This document shows, one piece after another, positions 23,851 to 34,074 of a DNA stretch of 64,000 nucleotides. The notes under the pieces were generated by a model. The model had not been told where the DNA came from. It did no database searches and saw only the letters and a list, made by a program, of their open reading frames with translations. How positions within the stretch are numbered: position 1 is the stretch's first letter; every line of letters starts with the position of its first letter. This stretch comes from Oceanibacterium hippocampi. GTDB taxonomy: Bacteria > Pseudomonadota > Alphaproteobacteria > Sneathiellales > Sneathiellaceae. A program made the translations under genes and the position numbers. Where the stretch lies: NCBI RefSeq assembly GCF_900172325.1, contig NZ_FWFR01000001.1:2000335-2064334 (forward strand). Direction: 5' to 3'.

Positions 23851-24456
23851 ATGAACTGGTTGAAATCTGGTCTCGCCGCCGCCGGCCTCGTCGCCGGTCT
23901 CGCCTTCGCCGGCACGGCCTCGGCCACGGTGAGCTTCGATCTCGCCGGCGCGCCTGCGTCCAGTGTGACGATCAGCAATCACAGCTGCATCGGTCTCGGC
24001 TGCACGACCCCGACCGCCTCGATCCTCGGCTCGCTCGACAGCCAGGTCTTCGATCTCGAGGTCGGCGAAAGCAAGTCCGTCAACTTCTTCGACATCTCGG
24101 TCGGTGGCTTCCTCTCGGCCGGCTCCTTTGACGTTGCCGCGACGCTCGCCTTCGATGCGCCTTCGGTCGCCGGCGGCGCCGGTTCCGGCAGCGGCGGCTA
24201 TGCGACGTTCCTCGGTGTCGTCTCTGGCGGTGTTCTGACCTGGGATACGCAGCCGGGCACGCTGACCGATGCCGACGGCAACATGTTCTCGGTGGTCTTC
24301 AGCAACATCCTCGAGGGTGGCCTGGGCAACACCGCGACCGTCAAGGCGACGATCAAGCTGCTCCAGGAAGCGGAAGTTCCGGAGCCGGCCGCGCTGGGCC
24401 TGCTTGGCCTCGGCCTGCTCGGTCTCGGCATCGCGCGTCGCCGCAAGGCCGCGTAA
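23851..24456 (+). CDS. PEP-CTERM sorting domain protein, copy 1
   Basis: A 201-residue exported protein. The signal peptide is GLAAAGLVAGLAFAGTASA. The mature part is rich in Gly, Ser, Ala and Thr and predicted beta-rich, with one Cys pair in HSCIGLGCT. The C-terminus is a complete exosortase sorting signal: VPEP at residues 176-179, a Leu/Gly transmembrane stretch and a basic tail ending RRRKAA. Such proteins are cleaved by exosortase and released to the surface or extracellular matrix. The exosortase genes are not in the window. Copy 2 follows at 24751 with near-identical ends. Confidence 0.93.
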   Translation: MNWLKSGLAAAGLVAGLAFAGTASATVSFDLAGAPASSVTISNHSCIGLGCTTPTASILGSLDSQVFDLEVGESKSVNFFDISVGGFLSAGSFDVAATLAFDAPSVAGGAGSGSGGYATFLGVVSGGVLTWDTQPGTLTDADGNMFSVVFSNILEGGLGNTATVKATIKLLQEAEVPEPAALGLLGLGLLGLGIARRRKAA

Positions 24457-24673: not shown

Positions 24674-24750
24674 GATATTCAGGGCATGAGGTGGCGAGCG
24701 CATCGCCCTTCGACCGAATTCTGAACCGATTTATTGTCAGGGAGAATGTC

Positions 24751-25359
24751 ATGAACTGGATGAAAACTGGCCTCGCCACCGCCGGCCTCGTCGCCGGCCT
24801 CGCCTTCGCCGGAACGGCTTCCGCCACGGTAAGCTTCGATCTCGCCGGCGCGCCCGCGTCCAGTGTCACCATCAGCAATCACAGCTGCATCGGTCTCGGC
24901 TGCACCGCGCCGACCGCCTCGATCCTCGCCTCGCTCGACAGCGAAGTCTTCGATCTGGAAGTCGGCGATAGCAAGACCGTCAACTTCTTCAAGATCTCCG
25001 TTTCCGGCTTCCTTACCGGCGGAACCGCCGACATCGCGGCCACCCTTGCCTTCGACGCGCCGACCGGTACCGGCGGCGCCACCGGCTCGGGCAACGGCTC
25101 CTACGCGACCTTCCTGGGTCTGATCTCGGGCGGCACCGTGACCTGGACGACCCAGCCGGGCACGCTGACCGACTCCGACGGCAATTCCTTCTCGGTGGTC
25201 TTCAGCAACATCCTCGAGGGTGGCCTGGGCAACAGCACCAAGGTCAAGGCGACGATCACCCTGCTTGAGGAAGCGGAAGTTCCGGAGCCGGCCGCGCTCG
25301 GCCTGCTCGGCCTCGGCCTGCTCGGTCTCGGCATCGCGCGTCGCCGCAAGGCCGCGTAA
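24751..25359 (+). CDS. PEP-CTERM sorting domain protein, copy 2
   Basis: The product is 202 residues from ATG 24751, behind AGGGAGAATGTC. An open frame reaches 24691 but would destroy the signal peptide. It is a clear duplicate of copy 1: the signal peptide, the SFDLAGAPASSVTISNHSCIGLGCT block and the C-terminal VPEP (177-180) plus Leu/Gly helix and basic tail are nearly identical. The middle, about residues 75-125 with Thr-Gly-Gly-rich linkers, has diverged. Ligand and function are unknown; the family is known from exopolysaccharide and floc-forming bacteria. It carries its own sigma-54 promoter and terminator. Confidence 0.93.
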   Translation: MNWMKTGLATAGLVAGLAFAGTASATVSFDLAGAPASSVTISNHSCIGLGCTAPTASILASLDSEVFDLEVGDSKTVNFFKISVSGFLTGGTADIAATLAFDAPTGTGGATGSGNGSYATFLGLISGGTVTWTTQPGTLTDSDGNSFSVVFSNILEGGLGNSTKVKATITLLEEAEVPEPAALGLLGLGLLGLGIARRRKAA

Positions 25360-25382: not shown

Positions 25383-25545
25383 ACGGCGGCGCCCCTGGTG
25401 CCGCCGTTTTCTTTTCTGCCATGCGGCGCCCCTGGCGCCGCCATTCTCGTTTCTGCCATGCGCGGCGCCCCTGGCGCCGCCGCTCTCGTTTCTGCTCTGC
25501 CATGCGGCGCCCCTGGCGCCGCCGCTCTCGTTTCTGCCATGGGGC
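25383..25545 (+). repeat. Array of four GC hairpins after PEP-CTERM copy 2
   Basis: Four hairpins at about 25383-25410, 25423-25442, 25462-25482 and 25504-25524, spaced 39-42 bases apart. All share the core GCC-CCT-GGCGCCGCC and the spacer TTTCTGCCATG; a fifth unit survives only as its spacer near 25531. The first has a C-to-T change that still pairs as G-U and ends in TTTTCTTTT, so it is the functional terminator. The others look like copies made by slippage or unequal exchange. Confidence 0.85.
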
Positions 25546-31007: not shown

Positions 31008-32045
31008 ATGCACGGATTTCGGAACAAATTGCTCACCACCACCTTCATTCCCCTGATCGCGGGGCTGGGCGGAGTCGTTGCCGTCGCCGCGATCGGTCCG
31101 CAGGCGATCGCCGCCGGGCAGGACCGCGCGGCCAATCCGCCGGCGGCGGCCCGTCCGGCCGATGCCGGCGCGCGGTCGCTCCTGGTCGCTGCGGCCTGCA
31201 ACCCCTGCGCGGCGAAGAGCGCCTGTAACCCCTGCGCGGCAAAGAACCCCTGTGCCGCGAAGAACGCCTGCAACCCCTGTGCGGCGAAGAACCCCTGCGC
31301 CGCCTCGGCCTGCAATCCGTGCAATCCATGCGCGGCCGGCGGTGCTGCCGTCTCGGCGGCCTGCAACGTGCCGCGCCTGATGAAGGCGGCGCTCGCCAAC
31401 CCGTGCGCGGCGAAGAATCCCTGTGCGGCGAAGGGGGCCTGCAATCCGTGCGCGGCGAAGGGCGCCTGCAATCCCTGCGCGGCGAAGAATCCCTGTGCCG
31501 CGTCGGCCTGCAACCCGTGCAATCCCTGCGCGGCGGCGGAAGAGGTCGAGATCAGCAATGCCGAGGCGGTCGCGGTTTACGACTGCCTGCGGGCGGAAAT
31601 GAAGGCCGGCTATGTCAAGTCGGGCGATGCGGTCGCGGTGCAGTACACGTCCTGGAAGAATTTCTCCATCGCGCCCTATCCCTCGGCGACCCATGGCGGA
31701 CGCTTCGTCAACAACTACGCCAACGGGGTCGGCCAGGAGGCCTACGGCAAGTACGAGGATGTCGGCACCATGCCGGCCGGATCGGTGCTGGCCAAGGACA
31801 GCTTCACCGTCATGCCGGACGGCAAGGTCGCGGCCGGGCCGCTTTTCCTGATGGAGAAGATGCCGGCCGGTTTCAACGCGGCGAGCCATGACTGGAAATA
31901 TTCCATGATCATGCCGACCGGCCAGGTCGCCGGCGTGACCAACGGCGCGGGCAGCCAGACCGTGCAGTTCTGTTACGAATGCCACGTCGCGATGGAGGAC
32001 CAGGATGACTTGTTCTTCATGCCGGAAGAGATGCGTGTAAACTGA
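31008..32045 (+). CDS. Cytochrome P460-family protein with N-terminal Cys-rich NPC-repeat domain
   Basis: The product is 345 residues from ATG 31008, after GGGAGGCG; an open frame from 30939 has no good start. A signal peptide/anchor covers residues 1-37. Residues 64-174 hold 22 cysteines in 111 residues, as 14 Asn-Pro-Cys units arranged CNPCAAK, NPCAAK, SACNPCAAK and ACNPCNPC. The block is internally duplicated, with a spacer (NVPRLMKAALA) between halves. Residues 180-345 are a cytochrome P460 domain (SWKNFSIAPYPSATHGGRFVNNYANG, MPAGSVLAKDSF) with a heme c site CYECH at 322-326. It is exported and probably redox active. The role of the repeat is unknown. A paralog without the repeat follows 66 bases later. 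Confidence 0.85.
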   Translation: MHGFRNKLLTTTFIPLIAGLGGVVAVAAIGPQAIAAGQDRAANPPAAARPADAGARSLLVAAACNPCAAKSACNPCAAKNPCAAKNACNPCAAKNPCAASACNPCNPCAAGGAAVSAACNVPRLMKAALANPCAAKNPCAAKGACNPCAAKGACNPCAAKNPCAASACNPCNPCAAAEEVEISNAEAVAVYDCLRAEMKAGYVKSGDAVAVQYTSWKNFSIAPYPSATHGGRFVNNYANGVGQEAYGKYEDVGTMPAGSVLAKDSFTVMPDGKVAAGPLFLMEKMPAGFNAASHDWKYSMIMPTGQVAGVTNGAGSQTVQFCYECHVAMEDQDDLFFMPEEMRVN

Positions 32046-32111
32046 ATGGGGCGGTTCGGCCGGTCCGGGCGACAGGCCCGGGCCGGCGACCCCGCCGACA
32101 GGAGGCGCCCG

Positions 32112-32759
32112 ATGCGCTCTGTGCGCGGAAGTGTCGGTTACTGGGCTCTCGTACTCGCGGCCTCTGTTTTCCTGGCCGGCTTCGCAAGTCTTGCCGTGGC
32201 CCAGGACGATGACGCGGCCTTCGGGATCCATGAGCATTTCAGGCTGGACGATCCGGCAGATCTCGACGATGCGGCGGCGGAGGCGATCTACCGCGAACTC
32301 GTCGACGACCTCGCCGAACGGTATGGCCGTTCGGAGGATGCGACGGCCCGCGACTACCGCGACTGGCGGCGCTTCAACCGGGCGCCATACCGTTCCGCCA
32401 CCCATGGCGAGCGTTTCGTCAACAATTACGGCAACGGGATCGCCGAGGGGCCCTATGCCCGGGCCGAGCGCGGGGTGGCCATGCCGGCCGGCTCCGTGCT
32501 GGCGAAGGACAGCTTCTCCGTGACCGCCGACGGGACGGTGCTGCCGAGCGCCTTCTTCATCATGGAGAAGATGGCGCCGGGCTTCGCGCCGAAGAACGGT
32601 GACTGGCGCTACGCGATGATCCTGCCCGACGGCTCGGTGCTCGGCGATACAAACGGCGACAACGGCGCCGAGATGCGCTTCTGCGCCGACTGTCACGTGG
32701 CCCGCAAGGCCTACGACTACCTCTTCTTCATGCCGAAACGCGTCCGCCAGGTCGACTGA
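32112..32759 (+). CDS. Cytochrome P460-family protein, repeat-less paralog
   Basis: The product is 215 residues from ATG 32112, preceded by AGGAGGCGCCCG. A signal peptide (VLAASVFLAGFASLAVAQ) leads to an acidic linker and then a P460 domain very like that of its neighbour: FNRAPYRSATHGERFVNNYGNG, MPAGSVLAKDSFSV, FFIMEKMAPGF and DWRYAMILPDGSVLGDTNG. The heme c motif is CADCH at 191-195. P460 proteins include hydroxylamine- or NO-reacting heme proteins and the related c-prime-beta cytochromes. The crosslinking Lys cannot be placed with confidence here. It is probably co-transcribed with the NPC-repeat gene. Confidence 0.85.
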   Translation: MRSVRGSVGYWALVLAASVFLAGFASLAVAQDDDAAFGIHEHFRLDDPADLDDAAAEAIYRELVDDLAERYGRSEDATARDYRDWRRFNRAPYRSATHGERFVNNYGNGIAEGPYARAERGVAMPAGSVLAKDSFSVTADGTVLPSAFFIMEKMAPGFAPKNGDWRYAMILPDGSVLGDTNGDNGAEMRFCADCHVARKAYDYLFFMPKRVRQVD

Positions 32760-32883: not shown

Positions 32884-34074
32884 ATGACAGAACGGCGCGC
32901 CATTCTCTGCCTGGCCCTTGGCCAGACCATCTTCTGGGCTGGGACATTCTACCTGTTCCCGGCCCTGCTGCTGCGCTGGGAAAGCGCGCTCGGCTGGTCG
33001 AAGACGACGCTGACCGGTGCCTTCGCCGGTGCCGTCGTGGTCTCGGCGCTGTGTTCGCCGATTGCCGGGCGGCTGATCGATCGCGGCCGGGGCCCGGCGA
33101 TGATGGCCTTGTCGGGGCTTGCCGGCGCGCTGCTGATCGGATCGCTGGCGCTTGCCGGAGAGGTCTGGCAGTTCGTCGCGATCTGGCTGCTGATCGGTAT
33201 CGCGATGTCGGGGTCACTCTACGAACCCTGTTTCGCGCTTGTGACGCGCGCCTCGGGCGAACTCGCGCGGCGCCGGATCACCCTGATCACCCTGATCGCC
33301 GGTTTTGCCGGCACGCTTTCCTTCCCGCTCAACCATGTCGTCGCGGAATGGGGCGGCTGGCCGGCGGCGGTGCTGGTTTTCGCCGCCCTGATGGCGCTGA
33401 TCGGCGTGCCCGCGACCTGGCTCGGCGCCCGTTACCTCGAGGCGGGCCGACCGGCGGACGCGGATTCCCTGCCGCTCACGGCGGAGGAGGCGGCCGCCCG
33501 GCCATTCCTGCGGCGGCCGGCCTTCTGGCTGCTGGCCGCCGCCTTCTCGCTGCTGGTCATGACGCATAGCGTCATATTGAGCCACCTGCTGCCGATCCTT
33601 GCCGACCGGGGGCTGGCTGTCTCGCAGGCGGTGTTGGCCGCCTCGATGATCGGGCCGATGCAGGTCGCCGGGCGGCTCGCCGTGGTCGCCTTCGAGCGCC
33701 ATATCGGCACCCGGTCCATCACCGTCGCCTGCTTCCTCGCGGTCGTCGTCGGCGTGCTCTGCCTGATCGGCGCGGTGGCCGTACCGTTCCTGGTGGCGTT
33801 GTTCGTGCTGCTGCACGGCAGCGGCTTCGGCGTCACCAGCATCATGAAGCCGGTGACGACCCGCGATATCCTGGGCTCGCGCAATTTCGGCATGATGAAC
33901 GGCGCGCTTGCCGTGCCCTACCTGACCGCGGCGGCGCTGGCGCCCTTCGTCGGATCGCTGATCTGGGAGGCGGGCGGCTACACCCTCGTCCTCGAGGTCG
34001 TTACGGCGACCGCGCTCGCCGGGCTGGTCTGCTACCTGCTGGCCAGCCGTGCGCCGGCCGTCAGCGGACCTTGA
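32884..34074 (+). CDS. MFS transporter
   Basis: The product is 396 residues with 12 hydrophobic segments. Loop 2-3 reads SPIAGRLIDRGRGPAMMALSG, the MFS signature. GSLYEPCFALVTRASGELARRRITLITLIAGFAGTLSFP in the first half is typical of the oxalate/formate-antiporter-like or monocarboxylate-type subgroup. The substrate is not known. It has no clear functional link to the upstream cytochromes, which end 124 bases earlier. Its last 14 bases overlap the end of the convergent phaC. Confidence 0.85.
   Translation: MTERRAILCLALGQTIFWAGTFYLFPALLLRWESALGWSKTTLTGAFAGAVVVSALCSPIAGRLIDRGRGPAMMALSGLAGALLIGSLALAGEVWQFVAIWLLIGIAMSGSLYEPCFALVTRASGELARRRITLITLIAGFAGTLSFPLNHVVAEWGGWPAAVLVFAALMALIGVPATWLGARYLEAGRPADADSLPLTAEEAAARPFLRRPAFWLLAAAFSLLVMTHSVILSHLLPILADRGLAVSQAVLAASMIGPMQVAGRLAVVAFERHIGTRSITVACFLAVVVGVLCLIGAVAVPFLVALFVLLHGSGFGVTSIMKPVTTRDILGSRNFGMMNGALAVPYLTAAALAPFVGSLIWEAGGYTLVLEVVTATALAGLVCYLLASRAPAVSGP

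Follow-up and report, generated by a model that had tools for sequence, protein, structure and literature searches.

The window analyzed here is a 64,000-nt stretch of the Oceanibacterium hippocampi genome. At 31008-32045 on its forward strand lies a gene for a 345-residue protein (P0001) in which a signal-like start precedes two cysteine-repeat blocks and, at the C-terminus, a cytochrome P460 domain; a second P460 gene and a transporter gene come next (Table 1). The first-pass annotation had counted 22 cysteines in residues 64-174, mostly in Asn-Pro-Cys (NPC) units, and our recount gave the same result: this region holds 22 of the 25 cysteines of the entire protein, with 14 NPC and 9 CNPC motifs and not a single Phe, Trp, Tyr or His. 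When the residues of P0001 were shuffled 10,000 times, the most cysteine-rich 111 residues contained 11.9 cysteines on average and in no shuffle more than 19. Tandem arrays were also present in the gene at the DNA level, with TRF rows between 31194-31303 and 31416-31487. The repeat of P0001 had zero matches in Pfam or NCBIfam at E values up to 1, in keeping with the earlier remark that such a repeat has no characterized function; a relative at another locus, L130, passes the Pfam cut-off for Cornifin. The signal peptide that had been proposed is consistent with the start of the protein as judged by eye, in a region to which AlphaFold2 gave low confidence.

Table 1. Features of P0001 and of the genes downstream of it, in window coordinates.
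Feature	Position	Strand	Remarks
Putative signal peptide of P0001	31008..31115	+	About residues 1-36; basic start, hydrophobic core, A-x-A end; by eye
Cys repeat block 1	31197..31331	+	Residues 64-108, 11 Cys; tandem repeat
Spacer, predicted ordered	31338..31397	+	Residues 111-130; contains C119, CNVPRL
Cys repeat block 2	31398..31529	+	Residues 131-174, 10 Cys; tandem repeat
Cytochrome P460 domain of P0001	31545..32042	+	Residues 180-345; PF16694 at 213-336
Lys263	31794..31796	+	Invariant in 40/40 aligned P460 domains; aligned with Lys70
CYECH c-type heme site	31971..31985	+	Residues 322-326 of P0001
Second cytochrome P460 gene, lacking the Cys repeat	32112..32759	+	Start by eye; AGGAGG before ATG
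MFS transporter, downstream	32884..34074	+	PF07690, E = 4.2e-24

We modeled P0001 with AlphaFold2 from an alignment of 26 sequences. Block 1 was predicted to be disordered, with a pLDDT of about 32-43, and block 2 lay mostly below 50. The division into two blocks stood, but the 11-residue spacer first placed between them did not, as the gap from C108 to C133 spans 24 residues and has C119 inside it. Nor does this gap look like the plain linker it had been taken for: residues 111-130 reached a pLDDT of 82-93, with a predicted strand at 115-120 and a helix at 122-130, and they carry a C-x-[VIL]-P motif that recurred in 46 of 50 fusions. Because the repeat flanks the spacer on both sides in 42 of the 50, we regard the two-block layout around the conserved spacer as old; the suggested expansion by internal duplication fits the units within a block. 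On the basis of the model and the spacer motif, P0001 can be described as a P460 domain that carries two flexible arms with a predicted ordered spacer between them, the repeats being predicted to form disordered, thiol-rich segments. A regular three-residue repeat fold was considered and set aside, since by eye the distance between units departs in places from multiples of three, and the model shows disorder instead.

The 8 NPCAAK units of P0001 differ from one another at third codon positions only, and we rejected this as evidence of selection because the units had been chosen for their identical protein sequence, which makes the comparison circular. Protein-level selection was observed in one set of small relatives, 11 NPC peptides encoded beside a disulfide-oxidoreductase gene, in whose repeat pS was 0.86 and pN 0.10; these values support constraint and do not measure it, because alignment of a repeat favors matched cysteines. 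Cysteine was invariant in 10 of the 11 conserved cysteine columns of these peptides. The cysteines are thus conserved between species, a point on which the metal-binding idea of the first-pass annotation had been made to depend.

The assignment of the C-terminal half to the P460 family, with a CxxCH heme site, was upheld by a PF16694 match above its cut-off (E = 6.5e-8, 33.4 bits against 27). Foldseek matched the model to cytochromes P460 and c'-beta (7ead, 9hrk, 7s5o and 6hiu, E about 5e-6 to 7e-6), and most pLDDT block means of the P460 part exceeded 85, dropping to 70 and 69 over residues 321-340, near the CxxCH. In an alignment of 40 P460 domains, two of them from the window, both cysteines and the histidine of the heme site were invariant in 40 of 40. 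A profile alignment with a probability of 73% placed Lys263 opposite Lys70 of Nitrosomonas europaea P460, a correspondence of residue identity only, and in the same alignment the segment of the distal carboxylate (Glu96) fell at a gap. Lys70 is the heme-crosslinking residue according to the available text of a 2025 review of P460 proteins (PMC11928373), in which the terms "fusion", "fused" and "metallothionein" are absent. P0001 thus shares PF16694, the CxxCH, the fold and the aligned crosslink lysine with cytochromes P460 and c'-beta, and differs from them in its two repeat arms and ordered spacer. The second P460 gene also matched PF16694 (E = 6.7e-9, run on 32109-32759), and its product shares 48% identity with residues 180-343 of P0001. 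The MFS transporter scored 153.6 bits against the NCBIfam model ArsK, under the cut-off of 400; we count it as part of the neighborhood, with an unproven tie to the repeat.

We scanned the GTDB species genomes for the sequence ACNPCAAK and obtained at least 120 loci, most of them pieces of up to 8 kb and some from the same genome, so that all counts given for them describe the matches listed and not prevalence. A repeat frame was present in 104 of the 120 matched loci listed. Most of the other 16 look like chance matches; L095 and L102 resemble cut-down real peptides, and in L108 the match sits at a contig end. Among the 104 repeat loci listed, a P460 domain overlapped the repeat frame in 55 and was lacking in 49. 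Complete open reading frames of 71-147 residues accounted for 37 of those 49, and the other 12 were longer, cut by the end of the locus, or cytochrome fusions. The 37 small free forms are Lys-rich, and by eye most have a signal-like start. Hosts of the listed loci were mainly Alphaproteobacteria, with seven loci in Gammaproteobacteria and some assigned just to "Proteobacteria"; Sneathiella chungangensis and S. litorea are two of the hosts with a species name. Within the GTDB family of O. hippocampi, 21 of 25 genomes matched P0001, some of them through a small repeat peptide alone, and O. hippocampi itself has a free NPC peptide of 83 residues (L033:8885-9136) on C16, the contig that also carries the P0001 gene. 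An extreme fusion, at L169:3401-5725, runs to 774 residues with 110 cysteines and 39 NPC units and ends in the P460 domain.

A second kind of heme fusion was found in the gammaproteobacterial loci, where a cytochrome c domain has the repeat on one flank or on both. In L130 this domain belongs to the SoxA/TsdA type (PF21342, 37.5 bits), and the repeat was likewise joined to a PF21342 domain, above cut-off, in L288, L289 and L291 from other classes of the phylum; L283 matched only CCP_MauG, below its cut-off. The PF21342 test covered these five loci and left out L129, L284 and L097. One set of 14 regions in the analysis includes six from genomes reached through their repeat. The survey of fusions called for at the outset, carried out with a sequence pattern in place of an HMM, places the repeat on P460 domains, on SoxA/TsdA cytochrome c domains, or free-standing. 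The SoxA/TsdA-type fusions indicate that the NPC arm is also borne by a heme domain unrelated to P460. We conclude that P0001 belongs to a family of Asn-Pro-Cys-repeat proteins, putatively exported, that occur as free peptides or as c-heme fusions. A literature search, with thin coverage of subscription journals, returned no relevant paper on the NPC repeat or on P460 fusions, including searches that paired P460 with cysteine-rich or formylglycine-generating.

The strongest clue on P0001 is the pair of genes that recur near the repeat, one for a DUF6969 protein and one for an FGE-like protein. By HMM, DUF6969 was found within 3 kb of 45 of the 104 repeat loci among the matches listed. Its absence from the other 59 is explained in part by the shortness of most of the pieces; 16 of the 104 listed loci extend 2.5 kb on both sides, and 9 of these 16 have DUF6969. 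The repeat and DUF6969 also occurred together at the level of whole genomes. In the family of O. hippocampi, 20 genomes had both the repeat and DUF6969, 4 had neither, and the single genome with the repeat only (G013) is 65% complete. In a sample of 387 alphaproteobacterial genomes, DUF6969 was present in 96 and the exact CNPCAAK pattern in 39; 34 genomes had both, 5 the repeat only, 62 DUF6969 only and 286 neither, for an odds ratio of 31, with Fisher values that are too small and overstate the evidence because the genomes are related and not independent. In three of the repeat-only exceptions (G129, G295 and G385) the pattern occurs just once or twice, at scattered places, possibly by chance, and two (G271 and G405) may be real. 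DUF6969 was present in all six genomes behind the seven gammaproteobacterial repeat loci.

The DUF6969-positive genomes that lack the exact repeat were sampled with a looser pattern. NPCxxxNPC was found in 14 of the first 40 of these 62 genomes, compared with 2 of 40 genomes negative for both (at least 2.2 Mb), although four of the 14 (G076, G103, G215 and G218) had a single match each. We also inspected 20 DUF6969 regions from pattern-negative genomes by eye, passing over antisense and out-of-frame ORFs, and saw a Cys-repeat protein in 8 (L241, L242, L244, L248, L252, L254, L255 and L256) and none nearby in 12. Two secreted-looking Cys repeats of other types directly adjoin DUF6969, an AEGC type at L252:5679-5975 and a CSPCG type at L254:6015-6290. 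In genome G674, one DUF6969 gene stands beside an NPC-cytochrome fusion (L288), and a second comes after the gene of a GAKCGAK peptide, which itself lies directly downstream of MNIO (PF05114) and DUF2063 genes (L293). This last context links DUF6969 to Cys-rich, presumably exported peptides beyond the NPC type.

Across 37 DUF6969 sequences the invariant residues include E49, H52, D57, D60, Y69, H70, H72, E76, H79, H81, H114, N133 and W135. The model of the protein had a pLDDT of 93, and by eye a signal peptide was not evident. Structure searches against the PDB produced no convincing match: the lowest E value from Foldseek was 0.64, and VIA-align reached at most a Z of 4.3, over 56 residues. 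The best E value of the sequence against solved structures was 0.15. Assignment to a known fold was thus unsupported by Foldseek and VIA-align, though failure to match is no proof that the fold is new. Our literature search found no relevant paper on DUF6969, with subscription journals again thinly covered. We consider DUF6969 most likely to be the best candidate for a putative cytosolic step in which the repeat would be matured or loaded before export.

Also by HMM, the FGE-like gene lay within 3 kb of 31 of the 104 repeat loci, together with DUF6969 in 28, and FGE-DUF6969 pairs less than 300 bp apart numbered 21, all among the matches listed. The O. hippocampi genome has the two genes side by side (L227) on contig C7, apart from the repeat genes on C16, and the pair in Sneathiella genomes has a cytochrome c gene, recognized by eye, next to it. 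At L241 an FGE-like gene stands beside a P460 gene with GAC repeats. The FGE-like protein matched PF03781 (E = 4.7e-43, L169) and, in the PDB, ToxD, OvsA, EgtB and FGE, and its start is signal-like by eye. Near the C-terminus a CxxC motif (GCG[VI]CR) was present in 25 of 26 sequences, the remaining one ending with its locus. PF03781 and a conserved cysteine pair near the C-terminus are common to this protein and the FGE/SUMF1-fold oxidases, but in canonical FGE the catalytic cysteines are more widely spaced than in the CxxC of the partner. Because of this spacing, and because the FGE substrate site CxPxR occurs zero times in P0001, we did not class the partner as a formylglycine-generating enzyme. 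Canonical formylglycine formation was itself a weak candidate, given the absence of CxPxR from P0001, the small number of cysteines in a C-N-P context (9 of 22 in the P0001 repeat, 43% across 50 fusions) and the presence of the FGE-like gene next to GAC repeats at L241. The FGE-like protein is likely the best candidate for a maturation step that would take place in the periplasm.

We also clustered the genes within 4 kb of 113 listed loci, after 5 duplicates were dropped, and assigned each neighbor family on one or two members. DUF6969 was found at 43 of these loci, a mixed histidine-kinase cluster at 32 and the FGE/SUMF1-like cluster at 26. Wherever they occurred, two neighbors lay upstream of small NPC peptides: a VTT/TMEM64-type membrane protein, at 17 loci, and, at 16, a pyridine nucleotide-disulfide oxidoreductase bearing a CVPSK motif. 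The pair, as at L033:6507-8759, may be a thiol-handling unit. YeeE/YedE Sulf_transp genes (domain confirmed on L036) and cytochrome c genes were each near 7 of the 113 listed loci, and an MsrB-like neighbor was seen by eye at 7. At L292 a YeeE gene, a 77-residue NPC peptide, DUF6969 and a rhodanese stand in a row. Twelve listed loci, including L036:8543-9037, encode a protein of roughly 165 residues that looks secreted and in which CQF and SCPLNxT motifs are conserved; the two members run had no Pfam family above cut-off, and the protein is possibly cupredoxin-like. By eye, no copper pump or copper regulator was recognized among the neighbor clusters of the listed loci, and a plastocyanin-like neighbor was confined to one small group (L073, L104 and L122; Pfam on L104).

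Known systems offer several points of comparison. In the available text of PMC12452194 and PMC12538549, bufferins (Buf1, Buf2 and EGKCG) are Cys-rich exported precursors with Sec signals, repeated Cys motifs and a dedicated modifying enzyme alongside. The small NPC peptides have signal-like N-termini by eye, and the GAKCGAK/MNIO/DUF2063 context of L293 resembles the EGKCG clusters in the parts of these papers that were available. According to the accessible portion of PMC12452194, FGEs are copper enzymes and rare bufferin fusions of Buf1, Cytochrom_C and FGE-sulfatase domains exist; such fusions have in common with the NPC system a Cys-rich exported domain (putatively so in the NPC case), a c-type heme and an FGE domain. 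Unlike in bufferins, the partner at NPC loci is DUF6969, and the terms DUF6969 and P460 are absent from the available text of PMC12452194. No MNIO cluster was found among the recurring neighbors of the listed NPC loci. As a general partner, MNIO (DUF692, PF05114) was rejected: it was present in 9 of the 25 family genomes, where it does not track the repeat, and in O. hippocampi it lies on contig C7, the repeat genes being on C16. The NPC system is therefore closest to bufferins, yet is not a bufferin by the MNIO criterion.

Metallothioneins contain 15-30% cysteine, are Lys-rich, lack aromatic residues and are disordered without metal. The arms of P0001 are similar, with about 20% cysteine, many lysines and no aromatics, but the protein differs in its signal-like start, heme fusion, greater length and NPC/AAK repeat, and it matched no metallothionein family in Pfam or NCBIfam. 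Cornifin (SPRR) is a Pro/Cys-rich repeat protein of cornified envelopes; it is matched above cut-off by L130 and has no match in P0001. We read the Cornifin resemblance of L130 and of the 83-residue L033 peptide as shared Pro/Cys-rich composition.

Our preferred reading is that P0001 is a c-heme protein whose disordered thiol arms hold a soft metal, with Cu(I) as the first candidate, and we give it a probability of about 0.43. The NPC arms, outside the inner membrane, would hold the metal as metallothionein-like thiolate clusters. DUF6969 would act on the repeat before export as a dedicated maturation or loading factor, and the FGE-like protein, with its signal-like start and conserved CxxC, would act on it outside. 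Because the arms are tethered to a c-type heme, we suggest that the heme shifts their cargo or thiols between redox states; the heme domain might oxidize or reduce that cargo, or sense its state. The 22 cysteines in 111 residues without aromatics, the existence of free peptides, and the DUF6969 and FGE-like partners count for a metal. Its best outside support comes from the bufferin-cytochrome c-FGE fusions, which belong to a copper-linked system in the available text of PMC12452194. Counting against it are the YeeE/YedE, rhodanese (L292) and SoxA/TsdA domains, which point to sulfur, and the 62 of 96 DUF6969 genomes, in the sample of 387, that are without the exact repeat. The failure to recognize a copper pump or regulator by eye among the neighbor clusters of the listed loci, the restriction of plastocyanin-like neighbors to one small group, the 59 of 104 listed loci without DUF6969 within 3 kb and the 12 of 20 DUF6969 regions without a Cys-repeat protein weigh against it too. 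A broader proposal, to which we hold only tentatively, is that these genes form a second, MNIO-independent system for functional Cys-rich exported peptides, in which DUF6969, as a metalloenzyme with a fold not seen before, would modify or metallate the NPC-repeat cysteines before export, the FGE-like protein would finish the process in the periplasm, and the arm would be a cofactor reservoir for the fused c-heme.

If the arms were instead sulfur carriers, their cysteines would hold thiosulfate, persulfide or sulfane sulfur, and the heme would load or discharge them oxidatively. The fusion of the repeat to PF21342 domains in four loci fits this idea, as do the YeeE/YedE genes near 7 of 113 listed loci, the joint presence of YeeE and rhodanese at L292, and the disulfide oxidoreductase that precedes the small peptide in 16 listed loci. 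Against it, SoxY carries sulfur on a single terminal cysteine, quite unlike arms with dozens of cysteines, and by eye we recognized no soxY, soxZ or soxB among the recurring neighbors of the listed loci. We also know of no sulfur chemistry for P460. In the available text of PMC11928373 the P460 proteins are known for hydroxylamine and NO chemistry, and overall we judge a sulfur carrier rather unlikely. That same chemistry is the starting point for a thiol sink, in which the P460 domain would make or bind NO or HNO from hydroxylamine and the arms would trap it as S-nitrosothiols or disulfides, shielding the envelope. The P460 fold with its aligned and invariant crosslink lysine speaks for such a sink, and so do the P460 domains in 55 of 104 repeat loci among the matches listed and the MsrB-like neighbors in 7. 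It is harder to reconcile with a repeat that is also found free, or attached to a heme domain other than P460 that has the same partners, and the distal carboxylate of hydroxylamine oxidation could not be placed in our alignment; we think it unlikely.

The arms might instead have no metal or redox role and crosslink molecules through disulfides into a sheet or gel, as a structural surface or matrix protein. Their repetitive sequence and widely varying length, up to the 774 residues and 110 cysteines of L169, would suit this function, as would the Cornifin (PF02389) matches of L130 (40.1 bits against a cut-off of 34.8) and, below cut-off, of the free O. hippocampi peptide (26.6 bits). The tight link to DUF6969 and to heme domains argues the other way, P0001 has no Cornifin match, and the Lys-rich free forms of 71-147 residues in 37 listed loci resemble soluble peptides, which together leave a structural protein improbable. 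The tandem DNA repeats also raise the question of an artefact, a low-complexity product of slippage with no function. This we consider very improbable in view of the excess of pS over pN in the related small peptides, the recovery of at least 104 repeat loci in at least two classes, and the co-occurrence of the repeat with its partners.

Taken together, the NPC repeat and its partners suggest a route, so far little known, by which metals or reactive species of sulfur or nitrogen would be handled outside the inner membrane. Action of DUF6969 on the cysteines would account for the presence of the same thiol arm on two unrelated heme domains and would tie P460 chemistry to the handling of metal or sulfur in the periplasm. 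DUF6969 is a common partner, found in 96 of the 387 sampled alphaproteobacterial genomes and in 22 of a 397-genome sample drawn across the phylum, with which the first sample shares genomes and in which 8 of the 22 positives lie outside Alphaproteobacteria. If it acts on cysteines, an enzyme family without a recognized fold would join those known for peptide maturation.

Elsewhere in the window, two adjacent paralogous genes at 23851-24456 and 24691-25359 encode secreted-looking proteins that end in VPEPAALGLLGLGLLGLGIARRRKAA and by eye resemble PEP-CTERM-type anchored proteins. Just after them, at 25386-25545, are about four copies of a GC-rich repeat of 37-42 bp with a GGCGCCCCTGGCGCC core.
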